A stretch of 64,000 bases of DNA from Ramlibacter paludis. Its GTDB lineage: Bacteria; Pseudomonadota; Gammaproteobacteria; Burkholderiales; Burkholderiaceae_C. The stretch spans positions 558,001 through 622,000 of the forward strand of contig NZ_JAKLTM010000004.1 in the NCBI RefSeq assembly GCF_022012305.1. Direction: 5' to 3'. The position numbers and the translations under genes are program-made. This document shows positions 18,865 through 37,096 of this stretch, piece by piece. The notes under the pieces were generated by a model that did not search any database, was not told where the DNA came from, and saw nothing but the letters and a program-made list of their open reading frames with translations. The first letter of the stretch is position 1; the number at the start of each line of letters is the position of its first letter.

Positions 18865-19653
18865 TCACCGGCACGGCAGGACGACCGTCGGGATGTCCTC
18901 GACGTACTTCATCACCTGCCTTTGCGGCAGGTAGTGCAGCAGGAGGTCGGTTTCCTTCTTCACCACGGCGTAGCACTCGCAGCTCATGGCTTCGAGCCGC
19001 CCGCGGTCGAGCACGGTGATCAGGCCGCGGTCGTAGGAGATCACGCCCAGCTGCTCGAGCTTGGAAGCGGAACTGCTCACGCCGGAGCGTCGCACGCCGA
19101 GCATGTTGCTGATGAACTCCTGCGTCATGGTGAGCCGGTTTCCGGACAGCCGGTCCATCGACAGCAGCAGCCAGCGGCACAGCTGCTGGTCGATGGTGTG
19201 GTGGCGGTTGCAGACGGCCGTCTGCGCGACCTGCGTGATGAGTGCCTGGGTGTAGCGCAGCATGAGCTGGAGCAACTCGCCGTGGCGGTTGAATTCCTCG
19301 CGCACGCGCGCCTGCGGGAGTCGGTAGGCGTGGCCCGCGCTTTGCACGATGGAGCGGGACGGCGTGCTCTCGCCGCCCATGTAGAGCGTGATTCCCAGCA
19401 AACCCTCGTTGCCGACCACCGAGATCGCGGTGGACGCACCGTTCTCCATCAGGTACTGCATGGAGATGATCGAGTCGGTGGGGAAGTAGACGTGCCGCAT
19501 GGGCCGCCCGCCCTCGTACATCAGGGCCCGCAAGGGCAGTTCCGCCAGTTCGAGATGGGGAAACAGGCGGCTTTGGACAGCAGGCGACAGGGCCGCGAGG
19601 AGGTGGTTGGCCGTGGGCCCGGGGTCGTGCCCGTGTGCGGATGGATTCGTGAT
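18865..19653 (-). CDS. Crp/Fnr-family transcriptional regulator (probable non-ATG start)
   Basis: This regulator has an N-terminal cyclic-nucleotide-binding-like beta roll (GGRPMRHVYFPTDSIIS, GNEGLLGITLYMGG) and a C-terminal winged helix (MTQEFISNMLGVRRSGVSSSASKL). It lacks the N-terminal cysteine cluster of oxygen-sensing FNR and clear cAMP contacts, so its signal is unknown. The first ATG/GTG/TTG in frame is a TTG at 19533, but family-like sequence continues upstream (LLAALSPAVQSRLFPHLELAELP) to a stop just beyond 19660. The best match to family N-termini begins at ATC 19653 (reading x-TNPSAH), with AGGA 10 bp before it. The start is therefore either a rare ATC or a base change or sequence error. 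Confidence 0.85.
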   Translation of the reverse strand: MTNPSAHGHDPGPTANHLLAALSPAVQSRLFPHLELAELPLRALMYEGGRPMRHVYFPTDSIISMQYLMENGASTAISVVGNEGLLGITLYMGGESTPSRSIVQSAGHAYRLPQARVREEFNRHGELLQLMLRYTQALITQVAQTAVCNRHHTIDQQLCRWLLLSMDRLSGNRLTMTQEFISNMLGVRRSGVSSSASKLEQLGVISYDRGLITVLDRGRLEAMSCECYAVVKKETDLLLHYLPQRQVMKYVEDIPTVVLPCR

Positions 19654-25547: not shown

Positions 25548-28205
25548 TCAGGCCAGGCGCAAGCGCAGCCGCACCGTGCCTTCGGTCTCCGGAGAGGTCT
25601 CGAAGCCCTCGCTGCGGGCCAGCGCCAGCATGCCGGCGTTCTCCTGCAGGCATTGCCCCACCACCTCGGCGGTGCCGCGCGCGCGCAGGTAGGCGAGCAG
25701 CTTGCGCAGCAGCGCGCGGCCGAGGCCGCGCCGCTGCCAATCCGAAGCGACCTGGATCGCGAACTCCGCCACCACGTTGTCGGGGTCGCAGACGGCGCGC
25801 ACTTCGCCGGCGATGCGCTCGCCGTCCAGCGCCACGAAGGTCATCTCGCGTTCGTAGTCGATCTGGCAATAGCGCGCGAGTTCGCTGGACGGCACCGAGC
25901 GGCGCGACAGGAAGAAGCGCAGGCGCAGGTCGGCGGGCTCGGCGCCGGCATAGAAAGCGGCAAGCCGTTCGCCGTCCTCGGGCCGGATCGGCCGCACCGG
26001 CAGCTTGCGGCCGCCCGCGTCGATGCTCCCCTCCAGCTCGGAGGGATAGGGCCGCAGCGCCAGCCGGTCCTGCGCGTCGGCGGCGGCATCCCGCAGGCGG
26101 ATGCGCGCATCGATCGCCAGCACGCCGTCGGCATCCGCGAGCAAGGGGTTGATGTCCAGTTCGGCGATCCAGGGCAGGTCGACGGCCATCTGCGCCACGC
26201 GCAGCAGCGTGTCCACCACCGCCGCCTGGTTGGCCCCGGGCTGGCCGCGGTACCCGCCCAGCAGCCGGCCCGCCTGCGTGCGCGCCACCAGCTCGCGCGC
26301 GAGCGTCGCATTGAGCGGCGGCAGTTCCATGGCGGTGTCCTTGCGCACTTCCACCGCGGTGCCGCCGGCGCCAAACAGCACCAGCGGGCCGAACACCGGG
26401 TCGCTGGCGATGCCCACGATCAGTTCGCGCGCGTGCTTGCGCGTGGCCATGGGCTGCACCGTGAAGCCCGCGAAGCGCGCGGGCGGGCGGCAGCGGGCAA
26501 TCGCCTGGCGCATCAGCATCGCCGCCTTGCGCAATGCGTCGCCCGACGCCAGGTTCAGCGCAACGCCGCCGACGTCGGACTTGTGCACGATGTCCGGCGA
26601 CACGATCTTCAGCGCCACCGGGTAGCCGAGGTCGGCCGCCGCGTCCAGCGCCTCCTCCAGGTCGCAGGCCTTGCGCGTGCGCAGCACCGGGATGCCGTAG
26701 GCCGCCAGCAGCGCCATGGCCTGGTGCGCGTCCAGCCATTCCTGTCCGCCCGCCAGCGCGTCCTCCAGCACGTCGCGCACGGCCGCCCGGTCGGGCCGGA
26801 TGGCGCCGGGATGCGCGTCGGGCAGCTGCAGCAAGGCGGCCTGGTTGCGGTGGTAGTGCACCAGCTGCAGCCAGGCCTCGACCGCTCGCTCCGGCGTCGC
26901 GTAGCAGGGCTGGCCGCCGCGGGCGAAGGCCTCGCGCGCGGCCTGCACCGCCGGCCCGCCCAGCCAGCACGCCAGCACCGGCTTGCGCGCTTCGCGCAGC
27001 AGCGGCAGGCAGGCTTCGGCGATCTCGGCTGCCGGAACGATCGCGGTCGGCGCATGCAGGAACAGCACGCCGTCCACTTCCGGCGCGGCCAGCAGCAGGC
27101 GCAGTGCATCGCCATAGCGGGCGACCGGCGCGTCGCCGATGATGTCCACCGGGTCGCCATGGGACCACCCCGGCGGCAGGCAAGCGTCGAGGGCTTGCAG
27201 CGTCGCGTCCGACAGCTCGGCCAGCGTGCCCTGGCGCAGCGCCAGCGCATCGGCAGCCAGCACGCCGGCACCGCCGCCGTTGGTGAGGATCGCCAGCCGC
27301 TCGCCCACCCAGGGCCGCGGATGCGACAGCGTCTGCGCCGCATCGAAGAGCGCATCCAGGCTGTCCACCCGCAGCATGCCGGCGCGCCGCACCGCGGCCT
27401 CGAAGACCGCGTCGGAGCCGGCCAGCGCGCCGGTGTGCGAGGCCGCGGCGCGCGCCCCCTCGGGCGCCCGGCCCGCCTTGACCAGGATCACGGGCTTGTT
27501 GCGCGCGGCCGCGCGGGCCGCCGACATGAACTTGCGCGCGTGCCGGGCCGATTCCATGTACATCAGGATGGCGCGCGTGCCGGCGTCGCTCGCCAGGTAG
27601 TCGAGTACGTCGCCGAAGTCCACGTCGGCGCTGTCGCCCAGCGAGATGAAGTGCGAGAAGCCGATGCCCTGGCCCTGCGCCCAGTCGAGCATCGCGGTGG
27701 CGAGCGCGCCGGATTGCGTCACGAAGGCGATCTCGCCAGGGGCGGCGCTGCACGGCGCGAAGCTGGCGTTCAGGCCCACCCCCGGGACCAGCGCGCCGAT
27801 GCAATTGGGACCCAGGATGCGCAGCAGGAAGGGCTTCGCCGCGTCCAGCATCGCCTGCTCCAGCGTCGTGGCGCCGTCGGCGGTCTTCTCCTTCATGCCG
27901 GCACTGAGCACGATGGCGGCCCGCGTGCCCTTGCGGCCCAGCTCCGCGATGAGCCCGGGCACCGTGGCCGCGGGCGTGCAGATCACCGCCAGGTCGGGGG
28001 CGGCCGGCAGCGCCGCCACGCCGGGCAGCACCTCCATGCCGTCGACCTCGCCGCGATGCCGGTTGACGGCCCACAGCGGCCCCGCGAATCCGCCGGCGCG
28101 CAGGTTGCGCAACACGATGGCGCCCAGATTGCCCGGCCGCGCGGACACGCCGACGACGGCGACCGAACGGGGAGTGAAGAGGCGGTCGAGGTTGCGGATG
28201 CTCAT
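25548..28205 (-). CDS. ADP-forming acyl-CoA synthetase fused to GNAT acetyltransferase (PatZ/Pat-like)
   Basis: This 885-residue protein has a CoA-binding Rossmann domain (about 1-130, SVAVVGVSARPGNLG), succinyl-CoA-ligase-like domains with ILGPNCIG and the catalytic His region ASHTGALAGSD (about 260), an ATP-grasp domain (about 490-700, with YPVALKIVSPDIVHKSD) and a C-terminal GNAT domain (about 725-880, acetyl-CoA loop RRGLGRALL). Related proteins (E. coli PatZ, Rhodopseudomonas Pat) acetylate lysines of enzymes such as acetyl-CoA synthetase. Whether the ligase half is active is not certain. It is divergent from the phasin gene across 131 bp that hold one FNR-like box. The ATG at 28205 begins MSIRNLDRLF. 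Confidence 0.93.
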   Translation of the reverse strand: MSIRNLDRLFTPRSVAVVGVSARPGNLGAIVLRNLRAGGFAGPLWAVNRHRGEVDGMEVLPGVAALPAAPDLAVICTPAATVPGLIAELGRKGTRAAIVLSAGMKEKTADGATTLEQAMLDAAKPFLLRILGPNCIGALVPGVGLNASFAPCSAAPGEIAFVTQSGALATAMLDWAQGQGIGFSHFISLGDSADVDFGDVLDYLASDAGTRAILMYMESARHARKFMSAARAAARNKPVILVKAGRAPEGARAAASHTGALAGSDAVFEAAVRRAGMLRVDSLDALFDAAQTLSHPRPWVGERLAILTNGGGAGVLAADALALRQGTLAELSDATLQALDACLPPGWSHGDPVDIIGDAPVARYGDALRLLLAAPEVDGVLFLHAPTAIVPAAEIAEACLPLLREARKPVLACWLGGPAVQAAREAFARGGQPCYATPERAVEAWLQLVHYHRNQAALLQLPDAHPGAIRPDRAAVRDVLEDALAGGQEWLDAHQAMALLAAYGIPVLRTRKACDLEEALDAAADLGYPVALKIVSPDIVHKSDVGGVALNLASGDALRKAAMLMRQAIARCRPPARFAGFTVQPMATRKHARELIVGIASDPVFGPLVLFGAGGTAVEVRKDTAMELPPLNATLARELVARTQAGRLLGGYRGQPGANQAAVVDTLLRVAQMAVDLPWIAELDINPLLADADGVLAIDARIRLRDAAADAQDRLALRPYPSELEGSIDAGGRKLPVRPIRPEDGERLAAFYAGAEPADLRLRFFLSRRSVPSSELARYCQIDYEREMTFVALDGERIAGEVRAVCDPDNVVAEFAIQVASDWQRRGLGRALLRKLLAYLRARGTAEVVGQCLQENAGMLALARSEGFETSPETEGTVRLRLRLA

Positions 28206-28263: not shown

Positions 28264-28277
28264 TTGCGGCAGATCAA
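28264..28277. promoter_or_regulatory. FNR/Anr-like box between the patZ-like gene and phasin
   Basis: TTGCGGCAGATCAA (reverse TTGATCTGCCGCAA) matches the FNR consensus TTGAT-N4-ATCAA at 8 of 10 positions. For the phasin gene, CAGAAT at 28299-28304 is a possible -10, which puts the box centre near -41 (class II activation). For the opposite gene, TACGCT (28242-28237) gives the same spacing. Confidence 0.7.
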
Positions 28278-28336
28278 TGCGCCCGCGCGCGGGCTGCCCA
28301 GAATCGAAGCTCCACAAAGCGCGAAGGGAAAGAACC

Positions 28337-28744
28337 ATGGCCTCCAGGAATGCCACCGCAACCCGCACGCCCGCCGGCACGGCCACGCCGACGCCCGTCA
28401 ACCGGCTCGCCGAGCTCGGGCAGCAGCAGATGGCCGTCTTCACCGACAGCAGCGCGGCACTGCTGCGCGGCTTCGAGGCGATGCGCAAGATCCAGGACCA
28501 AACCAGCCAGCAGATCCTGCGCCGGCATGCAGCCACGCCGCAGGCAGGCAAGGGCGCCACGCCGGGCTTCGACGTGATGGCGGCGCAGGCCGCGCTGCTG
28601 CAGCAGGATCTCGCCGACACTGTGCGCTGCTGGCAGGACCTGGTGGGAGAGGCGATCGAGATCCACACCGAATTGCTCGGCTGCAGCGCCCGCCTGGTGA
28701 ACACCGAAGACGTGTTCGCCGCGGCGCGGTTCGTTCACGCCTGA
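28337..28744 (+). CDS. Phasin-like protein
   Basis: This 135-residue, mostly alpha-helical protein has a Thr/Ala-rich N-terminus (1-25) and an amphipathic region (RLAELGQQQMAVFTDSSAAL, then MRKIQDQTSQQ) like the phasin_2 family. Those proteins coat polyhydroxyalkanoate granules and influence their size. Length is slightly shorter than typical PhaP (about 180). The ATG at 28337 follows GAAGGGAAAG. The upstream FNR-like box suggests induction when oxygen is low, when PHB serves as an electron sink. No PHA synthase lies in the window. Confidence 0.72.
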   Translation: MASRNATATRTPAGTATPTPVNRLAELGQQQMAVFTDSSAALLRGFEAMRKIQDQTSQQILRRHAATPQAGKGATPGFDVMAAQAALLQQDLADTVRCWQDLVGEAIEIHTELLGCSARLVNTEDVFAAARFVHA

Positions 28745-28771
28745 AAGACCGCGGTTCCCGAGGCGGCCCGC

Positions 28772-29605
28772 TTACGCGGGCTCCAGCGCCATCATCCCGG
28801 CGGCCGTGTTCGAGATCGGGATGTGGTAGTTGCCGTGCACCTTGCGCACCGGCCCGGGCACGGCCGCGCGCGCAGCCAGCCACATCAGCAGTTCGATGCC
28901 TTGCGTGCCGGCCTTCTCCACCAGCTCGGGAATGCTGAACTGCGCGGCCCATTCGGGATCGTCCACCAGGCTGTCCATGAACTGCAGGTCGAACGGCTTG
29001 TTGATGAAGCCCGCGCGCGCGCCATCGAGCTGGTGGCTCAGGCCGCCGGTGCCGATCACGACCACCCGCTGGTCGCTGTCCCAGGAAGCGATCGCCTCGC
29101 CCACCGCCTTGCCGAGCGCGATGCAGCGGCGCGCGCTCGGCAGCGGGAACTGCACCGTGTTGATCGCGACCGGCACGGTGGCGACCGGGCAGCCCTGCGG
29201 CCAGAACAGCTTGAGCGGCAACGTGAAGGCATGGTCGACCAGCATCTCCTGGCAGCTGGTGATGTCGAATTCGCGCTCCACCAGGTGCTCGATGAGGTGC
29301 CAGGACAGCCCGGGCTCGCCGCGGAAGGGCGGCAGCGTCGGGATGCCCCAGCCCTCGTCGGCGTTGCGGTACTCGGCGGCCGCGCCCACGGCGAAGGTGG
29401 GCATCTTGTCCAGGAAGAAGTTCAGGCCGTGGTCGTTGTAGAAGACCACCGCCACGTCCGGCCGCACCGCATCGAGCCAGCGGTGCACCGGCGCGAAGCC
29501 GTCGAAGAAGGGCTTCCAGTAGGGCTCGCCCTGCACGCCGCGCGCCATCGCGCCGCCGAGGGCCGGCACGTGGGAGGTGGTCAAGCCGCCGACGATCGTT
29601 GCCAT
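28772..29605 (-). CDS. ligB: Class III extradiol dioxygenase beta (catalytic) subunit, LigB family
   Basis: This 277-residue protein is the catalytic Fe(II) subunit of a protocatechuate 4,5-dioxygenase-type ring-cleavage enzyme. Ligand and active-site candidates are His in LTTSHVPALG (near 12), His in NDHGLNFF (near 60) and the later GTGGLSHQLDG histidine (near 190), with a Glu ligand in between. It lies 10 bp after the alpha subunit gene and is read with it. Neither gene has the rest of a protocatechuate/gallate meta pathway nearby, so the true substrate may differ (gallate, a methylated catechol or another dihydroxy-aromatic). Confidence 0.9.
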   Translation of the reverse strand: MATIVGGLTTSHVPALGGAMARGVQGEPYWKPFFDGFAPVHRWLDAVRPDVAVVFYNDHGLNFFLDKMPTFAVGAAAEYRNADEGWGIPTLPPFRGEPGLSWHLIEHLVEREFDITSCQEMLVDHAFTLPLKLFWPQGCPVATVPVAINTVQFPLPSARRCIALGKAVGEAIASWDSDQRVVVIGTGGLSHQLDGARAGFINKPFDLQFMDSLVDDPEWAAQFSIPELVEKAGTQGIELLMWLAARAAVPGPVRKVHGNYHIPISNTAAGMMALEPA

Positions 29606-29615
29606 GTGCGTCTCC

Positions 29616-29981
29616 TCAGGCTTGCGGCCGCGCGGGCTGCTGGTTGTGGCGCACGAGCATCGCCTTGAATTCCTCCTTGGCCATGCCGGTCTGGGCCGCG
29701 CCGAGGTCCTGCACGTCGAGGCCGAAGATGCCCGCGAGCTTCGCCAGATAGTAGACGTTGCCGCCGGCCGCCAGCAGGCCGGCCACGTCGCGCTCGCGGA
29801 CGGCGCGGGCCTGCGGCTCGTCGAGGCCATAGCGGCGCATGTAGCCATCCTCGTCCCGGCGGAAGGCTTCGCGGTTCTCCGCGCTGTTGAAGGAGAAGCA
29901 CATCTTGTTGAGCGCGTAGCCCTTGCGGGCCTGCACGCCGTCGAACAAGGTGGTGCCGGGGATGGCCGCCGCGTCGCTCAT
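29616..29981 (-). CDS. ligA: Class III extradiol dioxygenase alpha subunit, LigA family
   Basis: This 121-residue small subunit caps the LigB active site. The family signature is an N-terminal helical region with LNKMCFSFNSAENREAF, then YMRRYGL and a second helical part AGGNVYYLAKLAGIFG that ends in a conserved GM..EEF stretch. Sphingobium LigA is slightly longer. The ATG at 29981 is preceded by GAGGA. The frame extends upstream without likeness. An FNR-like box lies about 64 bp upstream, unusual for an oxygen-consuming enzyme. Confidence 0.9.
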   Translation of the reverse strand: MSDAAAIPGTTLFDGVQARKGYALNKMCFSFNSAENREAFRRDEDGYMRRYGLDEPQARAVRERDVAGLLAAGGNVYYLAKLAGIFGLDVQDLGAAQTGMAKEEFKAMLVRHNQQPARPQA

Positions 29982-30038
29982 GGTTCGTCCTCTGCAAAAA
30001 ACCTGCGGCCAGTCTGCGGCGCACGCGGCACGCGCCGA

Positions 30039-30052
30039 CTGACGCAGGTCAA
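30039..30052 (-). promoter_or_regulatory. FNR/Anr-like box upstream of ligAB
   Basis: On the minus strand the site reads TTGACCTGCGTCAG, 7 of 10 against TTGAT-N4-ATCAA. It shares the TTGA(C/T)CTG half with the other three boxes in this region. A -10 candidate CAGACT (30016-30011) places the box centre near -41. The rest of the 180-bp gap (29982-30162) shows no gene. Confidence 0.55.
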
Positions 30053-30162
30053 ACACCGGCGCGATCGGCGCTCCTGCATTCGACCACCACTCCAGCGAGG
30101 AATCTCCCGTGAGCAACAGAGGGCCGGCGCCCGTGGCACCGGCAGGACCGGGCACGCCGGCC

Positions 30163-30474
30163 TCACGGTTGCACCGCACGGGCCACCGGCGCGGTGGGGC
30201 GGGGAAAACCGTAGATGGTGTCGTTGAGGTGCCGCGCCACCGCGTCGATGTCTTCCGCGCTCCACGGCAGGCGGGCCTCGCCCTGCCAGCGCCGCACCTG
30301 CGCCCGCAACGAATCCCAGTCGCGCGCCTGGTGCAAGGTGCGCCAGTGCATCTGCTCCGTGTGGCATTCGATGCAATGGTTGGAATACAGCAGCCGTCCG
30401 CGCTCGGCGTCGGGCTCCTGCGCGACTGCGGCCCCTGCCAGCAGGAGGAGGCAGGACATGAGCAGCGGTTTCAT
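30163..30474 (-). CDS. Small secreted c-type cytochrome
   Basis: This 103-residue protein has a signal peptide (1-18, ending AAVAQ) and one haem-attachment motif, CIECH (near residue 34). There is no clear distal Met in the usual place, although the helix WSAEDIDAVARHLNDTIYGFP resembles the C-terminal helix of class I monohaem cytochromes. It could be a cytochrome c of the cbb3/nitrate-reduction type or an electron shuttle. The ATG overlaps the stop of the DUF2892 gene (ATGA), making a three-gene operon with the P-type ATPase. Confidence 0.82.
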   Translation of the reverse strand: MKPLLMSCLLLLAGAAVAQEPDAERGRLLYSNHCIECHTEQMHWRTLHQARDWDSLRAQVRRWQGEARLPWSAEDIDAVARHLNDTIYGFPRPTAPVARAVQP

Positions 30475-30671
30475 CCCCGCCTGCAGGTGTGGATGCCGAG
30501 CACCTGGTAGGCCGGGCAGTAGCGGAACATCGCCGTCGCCAGCGGCACCACGCCCAAGTAGCCCCAGGCGCCGATCACCCCGGTGCCGGCCAGGAAGATC
30601 AGCACGAAGCCGAGCGCAAAGCGCAGCCACTGGTCGAGGCTGCCGACGTTTTCCTGGAAGACGGATTTCAT
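30471..30671 (-). CDS. DUF2892 (YgaP-like transmembrane) protein
   Basis: This 66-residue inner-membrane protein starts MKSVFQENVGSLDQWLRF, the typical opening of DUF2892, then has two short hydrophobic helices (FVLIFLAGTGVIG and VVPLATAMFRYCPAYQVLG) and ends in a CR-rich tail. The family matches the membrane part of YgaP rhodanese proteins, and free-standing copies cluster with oxygen-limitation genes. It overlaps both neighbours by 4 bp, and its role is probably linked to the ATPase or cytochrome. Confidence 0.85.
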   Translation of the reverse strand: MKSVFQENVGSLDQWLRFALGFVLIFLAGTGVIGAWGYLGVVPLATAMFRYCPAYQVLGIHTCRRG

Positions 30672-33142
30672 GGCCTGCTCCTTGCGGGATCCTCGTGATG
30701 CTTTCCAGTATCGGCCGCCGCCGCCGGCGCGGGCGGCACGCCGAACTGCAGCAGCGAACGCAGCGGCGGCCAGGCGATCGCGGCGCCGAGGGCGAGCGCC
30801 GCCCCGCCTGTGATCCAGAAGAGCGCGCGCTGCGCCGGCTGGCGGCGGCCGTGCGGGCCGGTGTTCACCCATACCAACATCAGGTTGCCCGCAGTCAGCC
30901 CCACCACCGCCAGCGTGCGCGCCTGCTCGGCGTCGAGCGCCTGCAGCGCGCCGGCGTAGACGGCCAGCACCACGGCCAGCAGCAGGCCGCCTTCCAGTAC
31001 GCCCTGCCGCAGCATGGTCCTTCCGAGCAAGGCCTCGCGCGCCGGCCGCGGCGGCCGCCGCATCAGGCCGTCCTGTTCGGCGACCCCCTCGAAGGCGAAG
31101 GAGCACATCGGGTCGATCACCATCTCGGTCAGCACCACGTGCGCCGGCAGCAGGATGGGCGGCAGCCCGAACAGCAGCGGCAGCAGCGCCAGCCCCGCGA
31201 TCGGGACATGGACGGCAACGATGTAGGTCATCGCATGGCGCAGGTTGTCGAAGGTGCGCCGACCCGCGCGCACGCCGGCCACGATGCGCGCGAAGTCCTC
31301 GTCCAGCAGCACCAGCCCGGCGGCTTCGCGTGCGACGTCGGTGCCGCGCCGTCCCATCGCGATGCCGATGTGCGCGGCCTTCAGCGCCGGCGCATCGTTG
31401 ACGCCGTCGCCCGTCATCACCACGGTCTCGCCGTTGGCCTGCAGTGCCTGCACCAGCGCCAGCTTCTGCTGCGGCAGCACGCGGGCGAAGACGCGCACGT
31501 CGCGCACCGCGGCACGCAGCGCCTGCGCATCCATGCGCGCGAGCTCGGCGCCCGTCAGCGCGCCGGCGCCGACGGGGATGCCGGCCTGCGCGGCGATGGC
31601 CAGCGCCGTCGCCACGTGGTCCCCGGTGATCATGACCACCGCGATGCCGGCTGCGCGCGCCTCGGCCACCGCGGCCGGCACGCCCGCGCGCAAGGGATCC
31701 TCGAAGGCAACCAGCCCCAGCAAGTCCAGCGGCAGGTCCTGCTGCTGCGCGGCGAGGCCGGCGGCCACCGCGCTGCCACGCGCCACGGCCAGCACCCGCA
31801 GGCCCTGGCCGGCCAGTGCTTCGGCCTCGCGCAGCAGCGCCGCCCGCGGCGCGGGCGCCAGGCGGCAGAGGTCGGCGATCGCTTCCACGGCGCCCTTGGC
31901 TGCCAGTTCGATGGAACCCTCCGGACGCCGCCAGGCATGCGACATGGCCGGCAGTTCCGGCGTCAGCGCGTACTCGCGGCACAGCTCCCAGTCCGCATGC
32001 AGCTGCGGGGCGGCGAGGCGCGCATCGCCTTCGGCCAGGAGCGCCTGGTCGAGCGGGTCCGCACTGCCGCGGCGCGATGCGAGCACTGCGTATTCGAGCA
32101 GGCTGCGCGCGGACGGCGGCAACGCATCCCCCGCGGTGAGATCCAAGTCGGCGCCGCCGCTCGCCAGCCGCCGCAGGCGCTGCCGGTTCTCCGTGAGCGT
32201 GCCGGTCTTGTCGACGCACAGCACCGTGGCTGCGCCCAGGGCCTCGATCACCGCGGGCCGGCGCGCCAGCACCTGCAGCCGCGCCATGCGCCAGCCGGCC
32301 AGGCCGATGAAGATCGCGAGCACCATCGGGATCTCTTCCGGCAGCATGGCCATCGCGAAGGCCAGCGCTGCCAGCACGCCTTGCAGCCAGTCGCCGCTGC
32401 GCAGGCCGTACCACAGCACCAGCGCGGCGCTGAGCGCGAGCGCCAGCACGCCGAACCAGCGCACCAGCCGGCCCACCTGGCGCTGCAGCGGCGTGGCCTG
32501 CGTCTCGATGCCGGCCAGCGAGCCGCCGATGCGGCCCATCTGCGTTCGCGCGCCGGTGCCGGTGACTTCCGCCACGCCATGGCCGCCGACCACCAGCGTG
32601 CCGGCAAAGACGTGCGGGGAATCGTCGCCACCGGGCACCGGCTCGCCCGCCGCCGGGCCCGTGCGCTTGCGCACCGGCGCCGACTCGCCGGTGAGCAGGG
32701 ATTCGTCGACCTGCAGGGCGCTGGCTTCGCGCAGCAGCGCATCGGCGCCTATGCGCTCACCCTCGCCCACCAGCATCCAGTCGCCCGGGACCAGCTCCGT
32801 GGCCGGCATGCGCACCGTGGCGCCGTCGCGCAGCACGCGCACGTGCCGCACGGCCAGTTCGCGCAGGGCCTGCAGCGCGCGCTCGCCACGGTACTGCTGC
32901 AGCATCACCAGGCCGACCGAGACGACCGCGAAGAAGGAGAGCAGCAGGCCCTCGCCGAGGTCGCCGATCGCGAGGTAGAGCGCCGCGGCTGCCAGCAGCA
33001 GCAGGAACATCGGCTCGCCGGCCACTGCGGCCAGCACGTGGCGCAGGCTGTGGTCGCGCGCTTCCGCCGACTCGTTGCGGCCGAAGCGGGCGAGCCGCTC
33101 GCGGGCTTCATCCGTGGTCAATCCCTGCGCGGCGCTGTTCAT
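30668..33142 (-). CDS. P-type cation-translocating ATPase (P2-like)
   Basis: This 824-residue ATPase begins with the N-terminal cation-ATPase helix pair (GLTTDEARERLARFGRNE) and has actuator motif LTGES (near 150), transmembrane M4 with MLPEEIPM (near 280), phosphorylation site DKTGTLTEN (near 310) and hinge motif MTGDGVNDAPALKAAHIGIAMG. The M4 PEEIP motif differs from the PEGLP of Ca2+ pumps and from heavy-metal CPx types, so the ion is unclear (Ca2+, Mn2+, K+ or H+). It is first of three overlapping genes (ATPase-DUF2892-cytochrome c) and is driven by a promoter with an FNR-like box. The predicted start site is at the ATG itself. Confidence 0.93.
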   Translation of the reverse strand: MNSAAQGLTTDEARERLARFGRNESAEARDHSLRHVLAAVAGEPMFLLLLAAAALYLAIGDLGEGLLLSFFAVVSVGLVMLQQYRGERALQALRELAVRHVRVLRDGATVRMPATELVPGDWMLVGEGERIGADALLREASALQVDESLLTGESAPVRKRTGPAAGEPVPGGDDSPHVFAGTLVVGGHGVAEVTGTGARTQMGRIGGSLAGIETQATPLQRQVGRLVRWFGVLALALSAALVLWYGLRSGDWLQGVLAALAFAMAMLPEEIPMVLAIFIGLAGWRMARLQVLARRPAVIEALGAATVLCVDKTGTLTENRQRLRRLASGGADLDLTAGDALPPSARSLLEYAVLASRRGSADPLDQALLAEGDARLAAPQLHADWELCREYALTPELPAMSHAWRRPEGSIELAAKGAVEAIADLCRLAPAPRAALLREAEALAGQGLRVLAVARGSAVAAGLAAQQQDLPLDLLGLVAFEDPLRAGVPAAVAEARAAGIAVVMITGDHVATALAIAAQAGIPVGAGALTGAELARMDAQALRAAVRDVRVFARVLPQQKLALVQALQANGETVVMTGDGVNDAPALKAAHIGIAMGRRGTDVAREAAGLVLLDEDFARIVAGVRAGRRTFDNLRHAMTYIVAVHVPIAGLALLPLLFGLPPILLPAHVVLTEMVIDPMCSFAFEGVAEQDGLMRRPPRPAREALLGRTMLRQGVLEGGLLLAVVLAVYAGALQALDAEQARTLAVVGLTAGNLMLVWVNTGPHGRRQPAQRALFWITGGAALALGAAIAWPPLRSLLQFGVPPAPAAAADTGKHHEDPARSRP

Positions 33143-33149
33143 CGACCCG

Positions 33150-33217
33150 ACTGTAGGCAGGCCGCCGGGCCGCCGCTTGACCTGCATCAAGACCCGGACC
33201 GCGGCGGGGTCTAGAGT
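33150..33217. promoter_or_regulatory. Divergent FNR-box promoter pair (ATPase operon / AMP phosphorylase operon)
   Basis: The box TTGACCTGCATCAA (33177-33190) matches TTGAT-N4-ATCAA at 9 of 10 positions and is centred between the ATGs at 33142 and 33227. Plus-strand -10 TAGAGT (33212-33217) and minus-strand -10 TACAGT (33155-33150) both put the box near -41. Predicted transcripts start 0-3 bases from the ATG, so both may be leaderless. Confidence 0.75.
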
Positions 33218-33226
33218 GGGCTGGCA

Positions 33227-34753
33227 ATGGATTTCCCACCGCCCGCGACCGTCTCCAGCCAGCTGCGCCTGCGGCGGCTGGGCATCGACACCTACCAGGA
33301 GCCGGTGCTCTACATGCACCGCGACGACCCCGTTTGCCGCTCGGAAGGCTTCGAGGCCCAGTCGCGGGTGGAGATCAGCCTGGGCGAACGCAGCGTCATC
33401 GCGACGCTGAACGTCGTCCACGGCGGCTTCGTCGCGCTCGGCGAGGCCGCCGTGTCCGAAGCCGCCTGGCGCTCCTTGCGCGGCGAGGAAGGCACGCCCG
33501 TGCGGCTGCGCCATCCGCCGCCGCTGGAGTCGCTGGGCCACGTGCGGGCCAAGGTCTACGGCCGCAAGCTGACCGAAGGCGCACTGCGCGCGGTGATCGG
33601 CGACGTCGCCGCCGGCCGCTATTCGGAACTGCAGCTTGCCGCCTTCGTGACGGCCTGCGCCGGCGACCGGCTCGACCTGGAGGAGACCGCCTCCCTCACG
33701 CGCGCGATGGTCGATGCGGGCGAGCGCATCACCTGGGAGCCGGGCGTGGTGATGGACAAGCACTGCGTGGGCGGCCTGCCCGGCAACCGCACGACCATGG
33801 TGGTGGTGCCCATCGTCGCGGCCTGCGGGCTGCGCATGCCCAAGACTTCGTCGCGCGCGATCACTTCACCGGCCGGCACGGCCGACACCATGGAGACGCT
33901 TGCGCCCGTGGACCTCGACGTGGCCGCCATCCGTCGCACGGTGGAGCGCACCGGCGGCTGCATCGCCTGGGGCGGCTCGGTGCGCCTGAGCCCGGCCGAC
34001 GACGTCCTGATCCGCGTGGAGCGGCCCCTGGACCTGGACAGCCAGGGGCAGCTGGTCGCCTCGATCCTGTCGAAGAAGGCGGCAGCCGGCGCCACCCACG
34101 TCCTCATCGACATGCCGGTGGGCACCACGGCCAAGGTGCGCAGCCCGCATGCCGCGCACGTGCTCACCCACCAGCTGAAGGAAACCGCGCGCGCGATCGG
34201 TCTCCAGCTGCACGTGGTGCACACCGACGGCTCGGCGCCCATAGGCCGCGGCATCGGCCCGGCGCTGGAGGCACGCGACGTGCTGGCGGTGCTGCGCCGC
34301 GAGCCGGGGGCGCCCCACGACCTCGCGCAGCGCGCGCTGCTGCTGGCCGGGCAGCTGCTGGAATTCGGCGGCGCCGCCGTGGCCGGCGCCGGCGGCGCGC
34401 TGGCCGCGCAGGTGCTGGCCGACGGCCGCGCCTGGCGCAAGTTCCAGGACATCTGCGAAGCCCAGGGCGGAATGCGCGAACTGCCCGTCGCGGCCTACCG
34501 GCATGTGGTGACCGCGCCGCGCAGCGGCTCCGTGCAGGCGATCGACAACCGCCGGCTTTCGCGCATCGCCAAGCTCGCGGGCGCGCCGCAGGCGCAGGCC
34601 GCCGGCATCGACCTGCACGTGCGCAACGGCGACTTCGTCGAACGCGGCCAGCCGCTGTTCACGCTGCATGCCGTCTCGCCCGGCGAACTCGCCTATACGC
34701 TCGCCTACGCGCAGGCTCAGATGGAAACCGTGCACATCATGGAGGACGCGTGA
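33227..34753 (+). CDS. AMP-phosphorylase-type nucleoside phosphorylase (annotated often as thymidine phosphorylase)
   Basis: This 508-residue protein has an N-terminal extension (1-95, like the archaeal AMP phosphorylase domain that mediates oligomerisation), a helical dimerisation part, the phosphate/substrate domain (DKHCVGGLPGNRTT with PKTSSRAITSPAGTADTME) and a C-terminal barrel-sandwich domain. The K-T-S-S-R-A-I-T-S pattern is that of AMP phosphorylases, not of thymidine phosphorylase. It may therefore convert AMP (or GMP, UMP, CMP) plus phosphate to ribose 1,5-bisphosphate and base. No RuBisCO or ribose-bisphosphate isomerase is present, but the overlapping downstream gene (GTGA) encodes a PRPP-synthase-like protein. 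Confidence 0.87.
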   Translation: MDFPPPATVSSQLRLRRLGIDTYQEPVLYMHRDDPVCRSEGFEAQSRVEISLGERSVIATLNVVHGGFVALGEAAVSEAAWRSLRGEEGTPVRLRHPPPLESLGHVRAKVYGRKLTEGALRAVIGDVAAGRYSELQLAAFVTACAGDRLDLEETASLTRAMVDAGERITWEPGVVMDKHCVGGLPGNRTTMVVVPIVAACGLRMPKTSSRAITSPAGTADTMETLAPVDLDVAAIRRTVERTGGCIAWGGSVRLSPADDVLIRVERPLDLDSQGQLVASILSKKAAAGATHVLIDMPVGTTAKVRSPHAAHVLTHQLKETARAIGLQLHVVHTDGSAPIGRGIGPALEARDVLAVLRREPGAPHDLAQRALLLAGQLLEFGGAAVAGAGGALAAQVLADGRAWRKFQDICEAQGGMRELPVAAYRHVVTAPRSGSVQAIDNRRLSRIAKLAGAPQAQAAGIDLHVRNGDFVERGQPLFTLHAVSPGELAYTLAYAQAQMETVHIMEDA

Positions 34754-35637
34754 ACCCGCTGGTGCTGAGCCTGCCGGGCGCCGCCCCGCTGGGCGCCGCA
34801 CTGGCCGAACGCCTGCGCTGTCCCGCGGTCGGGATCGAGGTCCACCGCTTCCCCGACGGCGAGAGCGGCGTGCGCCTGCCCGTGCCGGTCGAAGGCATGC
34901 GCGTCGTGCTCGCGGCGCAGCTGGAACAACCGGACGGCGCGACCTGGCCCCTGCTCTTCGCCGCCGATGCGGCGCGCGAGCTCGGCGCGGTGCAGGTGGG
35001 CCTGGTCGTGCCCTACCTGCCTTACATGCGGCAGGACATGCGCTTTTGCGCCGGCGAAGCGATCACCTCGCGCAGCTACGCGAAGCTGCTGTCGCGGGCC
35101 GTCGACTTCCTGGTCACCGTCGACCCGCACCTGCACCGCTGGCGGCGCCTGGAAGACATCTACGACGTGCCCGCGCGCGTGGTCCCGGCGGCGCCCGCCA
35201 TCGCCGGCTGGCTGGCGCGCGAGGCGCCCGGCTGCATCCTGGTGGGGCCCGATGCCGAGAGCGAGCAATGGGTCGCCGACGTTGCGGCACGGGCCGGCGT
35301 GCCCTTCGCCGTGCTGCGCAAGGAGCGCCTGGGCGACCACGACGTGCGCATCCAGCTGCCGTCCGGTGTGTCGCCCGCAGGCCGCCTTCCGGTGCTGCTC
35401 GACGACATCGTCTCCAGCGGCGGCACGCTGGTGGCCGCGGCCGCCGTGCTGCGCGAGTCCGGCTGGCGCGCGCCGCTGGCGGTGGCGACGCACGCGCTGA
35501 TCGGGCCGGAGGGCGTGGAGGCGTTATGCCGGGCCGGCATCCGCCGCCTGGTCAGCTGCGACACCGTGCCGCATCCGAGCAATGCGATCGGCGTGCGCGG
35601 GCTGCTGGCCGAGGCCGTGGAGGAATTGCTCGCCTGA
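34750..35637 (+). CDS. Ribose-phosphate pyrophosphokinase-like protein
   Basis: This 295-residue protein is of the PRPP synthetase family. The N-terminal half has FPDGESGVRLP and PYLPYMRQD. The VDPHLHRW metal-binding stretch and a C-terminal PRPP loop LLDDIVSSGGTL follow. It is about 20 residues shorter than housekeeping Prs and more divergent, so it is probably an accessory paralogue. It starts at GTG 34750, which overlaps the phosphorylase stop (GTGA), so the two should be made together. A plausible role is to rebuild PRPP from a ribose phosphate released by the phosphorylase; this is an inference. Confidence 0.87.
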   Translation: MNPLVLSLPGAAPLGAALAERLRCPAVGIEVHRFPDGESGVRLPVPVEGMRVVLAAQLEQPDGATWPLLFAADAARELGAVQVGLVVPYLPYMRQDMRFCAGEAITSRSYAKLLSRAVDFLVTVDPHLHRWRRLEDIYDVPARVVPAAPAIAGWLAREAPGCILVGPDAESEQWVADVAARAGVPFAVLRKERLGDHDVRIQLPSGVSPAGRLPVLLDDIVSSGGTLVAAAAVLRESGWRAPLAVATHALIGPEGVEALCRAGIRRLVSCDTVPHPSNAIGVRGLLAEAVEELLA

Positions 35638-35647
35638 AGGCCGCGGC

Positions 35648-36490
35648 CTAGTGCGCCATCAGCACCGGCAAGGTCATCGCGTCCAGCACGCTGCGGCTGG
35701 CGCCGCCCAGCACCCACTCCCGCGCGCGGCTGTGGCCGTAACAGCCCATGACCAGCAGGTCGGCGCCGAGATCGAAGGTGCGCGAAAGCAGTGCCTCGCC
35801 GAACGACGCGGGTGCCGGTCCGCCGTGTTGCCAGTCGACCTCCACGCCGTGCCGGTGCAGGTAGCCGCGCAGGTCGAGCCCGGCGCCCTCCACCGCTGCC
35901 GCCGGCTCCTCGGACCAGCACAGCACGTGGACCTTCTTCGCCCGCTGCAGGAGGGGCAGCGCCGCCGCCACGGCCCGCGCCGCTTCGCGTGTTTCCTTCC
36001 ACGCGATCGCCACCGTCTCGCCCAGGCGGCCGGTGCCGCCGACGTAAGGGACGACGATCGCCGGGCGGCCGCTGGCGATGATCACCGCCTCGGCGAAGTC
36101 GGGCGGCACCGAGGCCGCCAGCGGGTCGCCAGGATGGCGCTGGCCCAGCACCAGCAGGTCGGCGAACAAGGCCTGCTGCGCGACCACCGCCTCGATCGGG
36201 AACTCGATGGCTTCGCTCCAGGCCACCGGCGCGCCCGGCGTGCGCAAGGTCTCGTCGAACATCTTGTGGGTGCGCTCCCGGCGTTCGTCTTCGATCGCGG
36301 CCAGGGCCTCGGCCATCGAAGGCACCATCTCGGGCGCGTAGGGCAAGCCGACGAAGACGGGCGTGGTCGCATACAGCGCGGCCAGTGCCGCGCCCTGCTG
36401 CTCGGCAAGTTTGCGCGCAAAGGCCAGGCGGGCCGGCGCAGCGACGCCCGGGTCGAGATGCACGAGGATCTGCTGGTAGCTTGCGGTCAT
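35648..36490 (-). CDS. Universal stress protein, tandem UspA domains
   Basis: This 280-residue protein has two UspA folds. The first (1-145) opens QQILVHLDPG, and the second (150-280) opens ETVAIAWKET and ends VMGCYGHSRAREWVLGGASRSVL, with the G-2x-G-9x-G-S ATP-binding signature. The first half lacks that signature. Tandem Usp proteins are commonly induced by oxygen limitation and stationary phase. The ATG at 36490 (MTASYQQ) is 23 bp after the flavodoxin-like stop, so the two are likely one transcript. Convergent with the PRPP-synthase-like gene, 10 bp apart. Confidence 0.93.
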   Translation of the reverse strand: MTASYQQILVHLDPGVAAPARLAFARKLAEQQGAALAALYATTPVFVGLPYAPEMVPSMAEALAAIEDERRERTHKMFDETLRTPGAPVAWSEAIEFPIEAVVAQQALFADLLVLGQRHPGDPLAASVPPDFAEAVIIASGRPAIVVPYVGGTGRLGETVAIAWKETREAARAVAAALPLLQRAKKVHVLCWSEEPAAAVEGAGLDLRGYLHRHGVEVDWQHGGPAPASFGEALLSRTFDLGADLLVMGCYGHSRAREWVLGGASRSVLDAMTLPVLMAH

Positions 36491-36513
36491 GGTCTTGCTC
36501 CGGAAGGGAAAGC

Positions 36514-37029
36514 TCAATCCATCGGCAGCACCGACGGGAAGTGATGGACGGTCGGCTGCGGCACCGGCCTTTCGTCCAGCCGGCTGCCGAAGTCGACCAG
36601 GTCCGCCGTCGCCGTGCCGTCCTCGATCCCGCCCGCCGTGAAGGCCCCGGCGCGGATCAGGCCATGCCCGAGGATGTGGGACAGCTCGCGGAACACGTTG
36701 GGGGCGCCGCCCGAATTCATCGTGCAGATCACGCCGGCCCGGGGCAGCTTCTCCCGGTACTGCGTGGCAAAGGTGCGCATCGGGCCGGCCAGCCGGTACG
36801 CCCAGACGGGCGTCATCAGGACGACGTTGCGGAACCGGCCCGGATCCGGGCCTTCATAGCGGATGGGCGGATGCCTGCGCAGCAGGGAGTCGAACACGCA
36901 GCGCCAGGTGGCGCGGGGCTCCACATCGGTGACCTCGCCCAGGGCGAAGTCGTGCTGGGACGCCAGCAGGCGCGCCGCGCGCCGGGTGACGCCGGTGTAC
37001 GAATAGAAGACGACCAGGGTGCTGTCCAT
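36514..37029 (-). CDS. Flavodoxin-family protein
   Basis: This 171-residue protein has a flavodoxin-like alpha/beta fold: the FMN-phosphate loop FYSYTGVTRR at the N-terminus, VVLMTPVWAYRLAGPM in the middle, then VICTMNSGGAP at the flavin-ring loop. It could donate electrons in low-potential chemistry or act as an NAD(P)H-dependent quinone reductase; the partner is unknown. It precedes the universal stress protein gene. An FNR-like box lies 54-67 bp upstream of the ATG. Confidence 0.88.
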   Translation of the reverse strand: MDSTLVVFYSYTGVTRRAARLLASQHDFALGEVTDVEPRATWRCVFDSLLRRHPPIRYEGPDPGRFRNVVLMTPVWAYRLAGPMRTFATQYREKLPRAGVICTMNSGGAPNVFRELSHILGHGLIRAGAFTAGGIEDGTATADLVDFGSRLDERPVPQPTVHHFPSVLPMD

Positions 37030-37082
37030 GTGCGTTCTCCTCAGCCTGTCGATGCAGTCTGGAGGAAAACGCCGGCGCCGGT

Positions 37083-37096
37083 TTGCGCCAGGTCAA
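37083..37096 (-). promoter_or_regulatory. FNR/Anr-like box upstream of flavodoxin/universal stress operon
   Basis: On the minus strand the site reads TTGACCTGGCGCAA, 7 of 10 against the consensus and sharing TTGACCTG with the 30039 and 33177 sites. The -10 candidate CAGACT (37061-37056) is identical to that of ligA and gives a box centre near -41. Confidence 0.6.

Follow-up and report, generated by a model that had tools for sequence, protein, structure and literature searches.

The DNA considered here is a window of 64,000 nucleotides (nt) from the Ramlibacter paludis genome (4.99 Mb in 21 contigs), taken from positions G000:C16:558001-622000. Between positions 28264 and 37096 of the window are four sites that resemble the binding site of the regulator FNR; two are divergent, and the four serve six promoters. 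In the palindromic form of the site, TTGAYN4RTCAA, ten positions are scored, and the hybrid form reads TTGAY-N4-CGCAA. To judge from sequence, it is very likely that these are FNR-type class II activator sites, which would drive the six promoters at low oxygen, and that the products would serve low-oxygen survival. The sites and the genes around them, in window coordinates, are as follows.

25548-28205, minus strand: acyl-CoA ligase of the nucleoside diphosphate (NDP)-forming type fused to a GNAT domain, SHTGAL motif kept (Pfam and PDB alignments)
28264-28277, divergent: hybrid FNR box, TTGATCTGCCGCAA on the minus strand, serving the ligase/GNAT gene and the phasin gene
28337-28744, plus strand: phasin-like protein (Phasin_2 just below the cut-off, 24.0 against 24.9 bits)
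28772-29605, minus strand: LigB, class III extradiol dioxygenase beta subunit (family profiles, 1b4u alignment)
29616-29981, minus strand: LigA, protocatechuate 4,5-dioxygenase alpha subunit family (family profiles)
30039-30052, minus strand: FNR box TTGACCTGCGTCAG, ligAB promoter
30163-30474, minus strand: small c-type cytochrome-like protein (Cytochrome_CBB3 below the cut-off, 23.8 against 27, with CxxCH present; DUF6525 just above the cut-off, 23.9 against 23.5)
30471-30671, minus strand: YgaP-like transmembrane protein (Pfam), the DUF2892 protein of the first-pass annotation
30668-33142, minus strand: cation-transporting P-type (E1-E2) ATPase, under every specific transporter equivalog cut-off
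33177-33190, divergent: perfect FNR palindrome, TTGACCTGCATCAA on the plus strand, serving the P-type ATPase operon and the phosphorylase/phosphoribosyl pyrophosphate (PRPP) synthase operon
33227-34753, plus strand: AMP/thymidine phosphorylase, TIGR02645 family (family profiles)
34750-35637, plus strand: PRPP synthase-like protein (PRK07199), active-site motifs kept
35648-36490, minus strand: universal stress protein (Pfam)
36514-37029, minus strand: flavodoxin-like protein (weak PDB match to 2mwm, E=0.014; no match in Pfam or NCBIfam)
37083-37096, minus strand: hybrid FNR box TTGACCTGGCGCAA, flavodoxin-like/usp operon

The first-pass annotation had placed sites at 28264, 30039, 33177 and 37083 before the genes named; all four are present there and intergenic by the gene calls. 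The site at 33177 matches the palindrome at 10/10 and that at 30039 at 9/10. Those at 28264 and 37083 are degenerate in one half and match at only 8/10 because this half is CGCAA, not RTCAA; they are of a recurrent hybrid type. Allowing two mismatches, the window has 128 matches against 74 +/- 10 in shuffled sequence, an uninformative result, and its two further 9/10 dyads (14019 and 27478) are inside called genes. One mismatch yields 223 sites in the whole genome and 113 when the pattern is reversed, and a match of this grade is therefore weak evidence by itself. The motif on which the first-pass annotation drew, TTGAYCTGNNNCAA, has seven copies in the 4.99 Mb against none for its control, an enrichment that is partly circular because the motif was derived from these sites; conservation supplies the independent evidence. 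Three copies lie within this 8.8 kb. Of the other four, one is in the nirK/norB-type intergene and one at a usp gene, and two fall within genes, one of these only weakly called.

Perfect palindromes number eight genome-wide, against five for the reversed-pattern control. Besides 33177, they are found in the nirK/norB-type intergene and at ccoI, ccoN and a usp gene; outside the window these names come from reading of the open reading frames, with no family search. One further site precedes a small-protein gene. The remaining two, at G000:C12:255849 and 260639, are identical dyads (TTGACYGCRGTCAA) near transporter and thiamine pyrophosphate-enzyme-like genes (labels by reading), and are set aside as likely local operators because a Crp-family gene adjoins one of them.

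In class II promoters of FNR the box is centred about 41.5 nt upstream of the transcription start and the -10 element is about 29 nt from that centre. At the island, the best -10 in the scanned range begins 28.5 nt from the box centre at five promoters (ligase TACGCT, phasin CAGAAT, ATPase TACAGT, phosphorylase TAGAGT and flavodoxin-like CAGACT) and 29.5 nt at ligA (CAGACT). Judged by the -10 position, all six have class II geometry, and the start is predicted some 41 nt from the centre of the box. The earlier placement of the -10 itself at about 41 bp was wrong, that being the distance of the predicted start; the identity of the ligA and flavodoxin-like hexamers had been read correctly. The match to TATAAT is modest, three of six positions at ligase, ligA and flavodoxin-like and four of six at phasin, ATPase and phosphorylase.

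The same spacing is found at related promoters. When boxed orthologues with 30 nt or more between box and start codon are aligned, the match to TATAAT peaks at 29.5 nt for ligA (2.68/6, the mean being 0.96) and at 28.5 nt for the phosphorylase (ampP), flavodoxin-like and ATPase promoters. In the R. paludis genome itself, the boxes of ccoI, ccoN and two usp genes have their best hexamer (3-4/6) at 28.5 or 29.5 nt; at the nirK/norB box and a third usp box hexamers are present at 28.5/29.5 nt and are not the best there.

The DNA upstream of orthologues was searched for the FNR dyad, two hybrid patterns and half-site-permuted control dyads. Of the 59 permuted dyads, YTGAT and TYGAT are near-copies of the FNR dyad; in a first genus-level scan they inflated the control rates (1.4-1.9%), and the final genus counts omit both, so that the controls there are 57 dyads and their own hybrids. 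Matches not beginning near the N terminus were excluded in the genus-level scans, and in one of these also matches with less than 150 nt upstream. One phosphorylase row without true upstream DNA was left out (n=29), as was one of 22 ligA rows (L114), which has no upstream DNA (n=21). Gene calls beyond the window come from a codon-usage script for which the window genes were the training set, and some may be misplaced in distant genomes.

With the R. paludis copy included in each count, the ligase promoter has a box of at least 9/10 in 12 of 30 genus orthologues and in 23 when exact hybrids are added (22/29 without the R. paludis copy). The prevailing ligase boxes are TTGATCTGGCGCAA, TTGATCTGGAACAA and TTGATCTGGAGCAA, mostly of the pattern TTGATCTGG[CA][GA]CAA. 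The flavodoxin-like gene has 7/17 at 9/10 or better and 10/17 with exact hybrids, the phosphorylase a box in 11/29, and the ATPase, for which the search reached other families of the order, a box in 11/28. Permuted-dyad controls for these four counts are 0.2-0.8%. In the wider named set, from which matches under 35% identity or not beginning near the N terminus were excluded, a 9/10 box is found at the ligase (5/8), usp (2/3) and flavodoxin-like (4/7) genes. At the phosphorylase 30 of 66 in this set match at 8/10; the link is weak among distant relatives. Many Polaromonas have the hybrid TTGCGTTTTATCAA at this gene, and phosphorylase promoters of Rhodobacterales match at 8/10 at best, with none at 9.

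Conservation before orthologous genes had been proposed as the check on the boxes. It is clear for the ligase and LigAB, moderate for the flavodoxin-like gene and only partial for phosphorylase, ATPase and phasin. The set of FNR-type promoters is real, conserved strongly at two operons and partly at others, and is a variant of known low-oxygen clusters. That the boxes reflect chance or base composition in GC-rich intergenic DNA might be argued from the 8/10 scores of two of them and from the abundance of loose window matches and one-mismatch sites given above; conservation at orthologous promoters, the fixed -10 spacing and control rates below 1% make this barely credible.

Seventy phosphorylase loci were collected, of which 32 and 20 entered the locus box count and 18 were excluded, including one short Ramlibacter match. 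The 32, picked by label and identity, are Comamonadaceae and some labelled only Burkholderiales, Burkholderiaceae or Proteobacteria; the 20 are mostly Rhodobacterales. The nearest named relatives of the R. paludis phosphorylase gene are in a Comamonadaceae metagenome-assembled genome (MAG) and in Ramlibacter montanisoli (81% each), followed by a Burkholderiales MAG (79%), a Polaromonas fragment (79%) and R. cellulosilyticus (78%). Around the gene in relatives, usp, flavodoxin-like, ATPase, YgaP/cytochrome, ligase and phasin genes recur in different combinations and orders, and several relatives have only phosphorylase and PRPP synthase at the locus. The 32 loci hold 97 intergenic boxes; the median for all 60 dyads is 4.5, and the near-copies raise the control maxima (71 and 64). 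Four of the 32 have no box. The 20 mostly Rhodobacterales loci show a small excess: they have 27 boxes where the mean is 9.0, and coding DNA holds as many. The description of the region as an oxygen-limitation island is fair by the count at the 32 loci, except in its inclusion of LigAB, which in the relatives examined is located elsewhere, usually together with its box.

The 32 related loci (603 kb) also show that the hybrid is a recurrent form. For TTGxx-N4-RTCAA, intergenic and coding sites number 56 and 3 with AC, 42 and 3 with AT (a two-strand count), 42 and 4 with CG and 23 and 0 with AG; every other xx gives at most 4. Once near-identical flanks are removed, the palindromic sites number 43, the CG hybrids 30 and the AG sites 19; each class has its -10 peak at 28.5-29.5 nt from the box centre. 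Exact sites in the related islands are 41 hybrid against 47 palindromic, or 30 against 43 without near-copies; the locus counts are not fully independent because many Polaromonas are included. The R. paludis genome has eight copies of TTGCGN4RTCAA and the control has eight, and it is therefore where the hybrid stands and how it is conserved, not how often it occurs, that gives it meaning in this genome. The hybrid TTGAY-N4-CGCAA, which in related islands almost equals the palindrome in frequency, looks to be new as a form of putative FNR site. A literature search, limited mostly to open papers, found no account of a TTGCG-type box or of FNR control of LigAB.

Two of the eight TTGCG copies are the island boxes. 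Among the six outside it, two have a 3/6 hexamer at 28.5/29.5 nt; one of these two is inside a called gene and the other has no called gene adjoining. Three of the six (L263, L264 and L267) were rejected as FNR promoters, as they overlap called genes, and a fourth (L265) for want of a -10 close to where one would be predicted. Also not counted, although they may be such promoters, were L268, with a 3/6 hexamer at 29.5 nt and no called gene adjoining, and L266 (G000:C15:88651), which almost abuts a called start codon (a few nt away) and has its best hexamer at 30.5 nt. The L266 site, TTGATCTAGCGCAA, is situated between a flavodoxin-like gene and BoxR-type regulator/BoxC genes of the benzoyl-CoA pathway (labels by reading) and is possibly only a -35 element.

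The box at ligAB is clearly conserved in the genus. A close LigB orthologue (82-100% identity) is found in 22 of 48 genus genomes, that of R. paludis included, and a ligAB box of at least 9/10 in 20 of the 21 with usable upstream DNA, against 0.6% for permuted dyads. A -10 (at least 3/6) is present at the expected place after the best box in 13 of the 21. Outside the genus, five of 23 orthologues (62-79% identity) have a 9/10 box, and seven have a box when exact hybrids are added, five of these seven with a matching -10 (controls 2%). The ligAB copy of Caenimonas sedimenti, near other island genes, has no box. In relatives, LigAB has a sigma-70 gene (Pfam) no more than a few genes away or is elsewhere off the island, and in nine genus genomes it is some 5-19 kb from the catabolic paralogue. 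Since LigAB is found in varied places and is usually boxed, the box in the genus travels with the gene and not with the place. In two relatives (L106 and L108) a second FNR-like box, TTGACCTGSGTCAG, begins 28 nt downstream of the first in the ligA promoter, at the place held by the single box in other relatives, and the sites are thus in tandem.

At the protein level, the LigAB family cut-offs are passed (PRK13364, 506 against 290; PRK13378, 187 against 161). His12, His59, the histidine of GGLSHQL and the glutamate of GIELLMW in LigB align with 1b4u and are intact; we take them to be the iron ligands and the catalytic histidine. The LigAB of Sphingobium SYK-6 (1b4u/1bou) is thus of the same family, with the same aligned ligand and histidine residues. 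The R. paludis genome has a paralogue in a protocatechuate-type operon to which the FNR-boxed LigAB is about 47% identical. Among paralogues at 45-49% identity, a box is found directly upstream of ligA in one of six, and six upstream stretches at or near the head of the paralogue operon (five regions; the scan missed one locus, L241) match at 7/10 at most, with no box. A LigAB that consumes oxygen and has a putative FNR box across the genus, unlike the catabolic paralogues, looks to be new.

The observations that weigh against FNR-activated promoters throughout the island concern both the promoters and the regulators. Among genus orthologues, 18 of 29 phosphorylase promoters have no box, nor have 17 of 28 at the ATPase, and in the wider named set a 9/10 box is found at only 7/66 phosphorylase, 1/5 ATPase, 1/4 phasin, 2/5 ygaP and 0/1 ligA promoters. 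The -10 peak of ligase orthologues is broad (26.5-29.5 nt). No FNR box was found at the DUF3141/PhaC-like-phosphate acyltransferase-acetate kinase-FabI-type (pta-ackA-type) operon of the same genome (G000:C16:472000-486000), which has counterparts in the lxa locus described below. In four of the 20 boxed ligAB promoters the box is 11-39 nt from the start codon, a distance too short for a class II site, barring a wrongly placed start or a repressing box. These four, and the oddness of inducing an oxygen-consuming enzyme at low oxygen, raise the question of whether FNR represses LigAB and so shuts off an oxygen-wasting enzyme as oxygen falls. Repression is unlikely, as the -10 elements in 13 of 21 genus promoters are at the class II activator position, like those of the cco genes of R. 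paludis, and the catabolic paralogues, which would gain most from repression, are mostly unboxed.

With respect to the regulator, a PF13545 profile search of the genome gave 21 matches, 16 of them above the cut-off, and 12 proteins were inspected. In FNR, cysteines hold the oxygen-sensitive [4Fe-4S] cluster, and E-x-x-S-R marks the recognition helix. A canonical FNR is encoded at G000:C20:117395, adjoining cco genes; it has CSTCHLRDLC, a further central cysteine and the helix LETVSRTFSAFQ. Among the 12 it is the one protein that combines CxxCx5C and the central cysteine with an LETVSR helix. On the opposite side of the balance, a second FNR-like protein (G000:C18:80705-80920) has CxxCx5C and the central cysteine with a changed helix, SDTVRR, and an E-x-x-S-R helix (SREMVSR/SREMISR) is present as well in three Crp-family proteins that lack the cysteines; the ten inspected proteins other than these two FNR-like ones have no cysteine motif. 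The C18 protein is possibly an oxygen or nitric oxide sensor with a different DNA specificity. A Crp-family-like protein without iron-sulphur cysteines is encoded in the window itself (18865-19521, minus strand), with similar proteins elsewhere in the genome.

Given the number of Crp/FNR-family matches, another member of the family, such as a nitric oxide sensor like Dnr or NnrR, the C18 protein or a cysteine-free protein, might read the boxes, and the signal would then not be oxygen itself. The changed helix of the C18 protein could suit a changed half-site such as TTGCG, the cysteine-free proteins have the helix signature, and a perfect box is present between the genes read as nirK and norB. 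These points are outweighed by the pairing of cysteines with the E-x-x-S-R helix in the canonical FNR only, and by the -10 spacing that hybrid and palindromic boxes share in the same loci and that is also found at the cco boxes; a different regulator is quite improbable. FNR-type control, as proposed in the first-pass annotation, thus draws its support from box, spacing, conservation and the canonical FNR gene, and is the probable reading of the sequence.

As oxygen falls, the [4Fe-4S] FNR of the genome would retain its cluster and dimerise, and the dimer would bind the boxes about 41 nt upstream of the starts and recruit RNA polymerase. The products would serve low-oxygen survival and energy saving: an acyl-CoA ligase that possibly forms ATP from acyl-CoA, a phasin, a cation pump, PRPP-linked nucleotide phosphorolysis, a flavodoxin-like protein and a stress protein. 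LigAB would most likely be a ring-cleaving isozyme made when oxygen is scarce. That FNR binds and activates, the direction in which oxygen acts and all the physiological roles are our inferences.

The ligase/GNAT fusion had been called PatZ-like. It has the domain order and length of 9it0, a solved protein labelled 'Protein acetyltransferase', to which it aligns end to end over 885 amino acids; protein acetylation is doubtful, as the window protein alone of the two has SHTGAL, a motif in common with the ADP-forming 4-hydroxybutyrate-CoA ligase 8wzu, and 9it0 is gapped there. We take 9it0 to be of the PatZ type and PatZ to be without this catalytic histidine; the ligase part of the window protein, with SHTGAL retained, departs from that type in this respect. 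SHTGAL or SHTGAM is present in 29 of 30 genus ligase orthologues, the thirtieth not having been located; a stricter search found 21. ADP-forming ligases can produce ATP from acyl-CoA. Because SHTGAL is kept where 9it0 has a gap, ATP formation linked to acyl-CoA is at least as likely as protein acetylation.

The phosphorylase was named an AMP phosphorylase in the first-pass annotation. It falls below the TIGR03327 equivalog cut-off (480.6 against 535) and above those of TIGR02645 and PRK04350, and aligns best with 4ga5/4ga4, a putative thymidine phosphorylase; a phosphorylase of the TIGR02645 family is the safest name. The PRPP synthase-like protein retains DDIVSSGGT and the KxR loop, presumably the active-site motifs of PRPP synthase.

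Low-oxygen clusters of related content are known. In Herbaspirillum seropedicae, the available part of a study by chromatin immunoprecipitation sequencing and RNA sequencing (PMC5934665) reports that FNR proteins directly activate a phasin gene, uspA genes and cytochromes, and also describes the class II arrangement for FNR. In the Fnr3 motif given there, positions 1 and 14 are weak, position 6 is C/G and position 7 is C/T; at 6-7 the four boxes of the island read C-T; the available text describes hybrid sites of Fnr1-type and Fnr3-type halves and no TTGCG half-site (PMC5934665). H. seropedicae has Fnr1 and Fnr3, in contrast to the one canonical FNR among the 12 proteins inspected in R. paludis, and a heterodimer-type reading of the hybrid boxes after Herbaspirillum is a less favoured possibility since one canonical FNR was found.

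The island resembles the lxa (low-oxygen-activated) locus of Burkholderia cenocepacia (BCAM0275A-BCAM0323), which by the product names in the available part of its gene table (PMC4981469) also has usp, cation-transporting ATPase, cytochrome and polyhydroxyalkanoate-related genes; CRP-family genes are predicted there as regulators. Again by product name, and with many entries hypothetical, this part of the table has no thymidine/AMP phosphorylase with PRPP synthase, no LigAB and no ligase-GNAT fusion; it has instead acetate kinase and phosphate acetyl/butyryltransferase (PMC4981469). Formation of ATP from acyl-CoA by the ligase is a plausible aim fitting low oxygen and, by analogy, a parallel to these lxa genes. 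The unboxed pta-ackA-type operon of R. paludis at G000:C16:472000-486000 resembles lxa genes and is about 110 kb from the island (labels partly by reading).

As FNR-controlled clusters are already known, the island itself is an extension of them, and what is unexpected is the hybrid form of the box and the presence of a box at LigAB. Exact or one-mismatch searches for TTGAYN4RTCAA would miss many sites in these islands, and regulons so predicted in such bacteria may therefore be incomplete. It is a tentative possibility, still short of an even chance, that in the genus and its relatives FNR regularly uses TTGAY-N4-CGCAA and induces LigAB as a low-oxygen isozyme of the protocatechuate type. Were this so, the LigAB isozyme would resemble the cbb3 oxidase, which replaces low-affinity oxidases. 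The genus-wide FNR box at LigAB makes a dedicated low-oxygen ring cleavage directly testable, and such cleavage would bear on the degradation of aromatic compounds in poorly aerated soil and aquifers.

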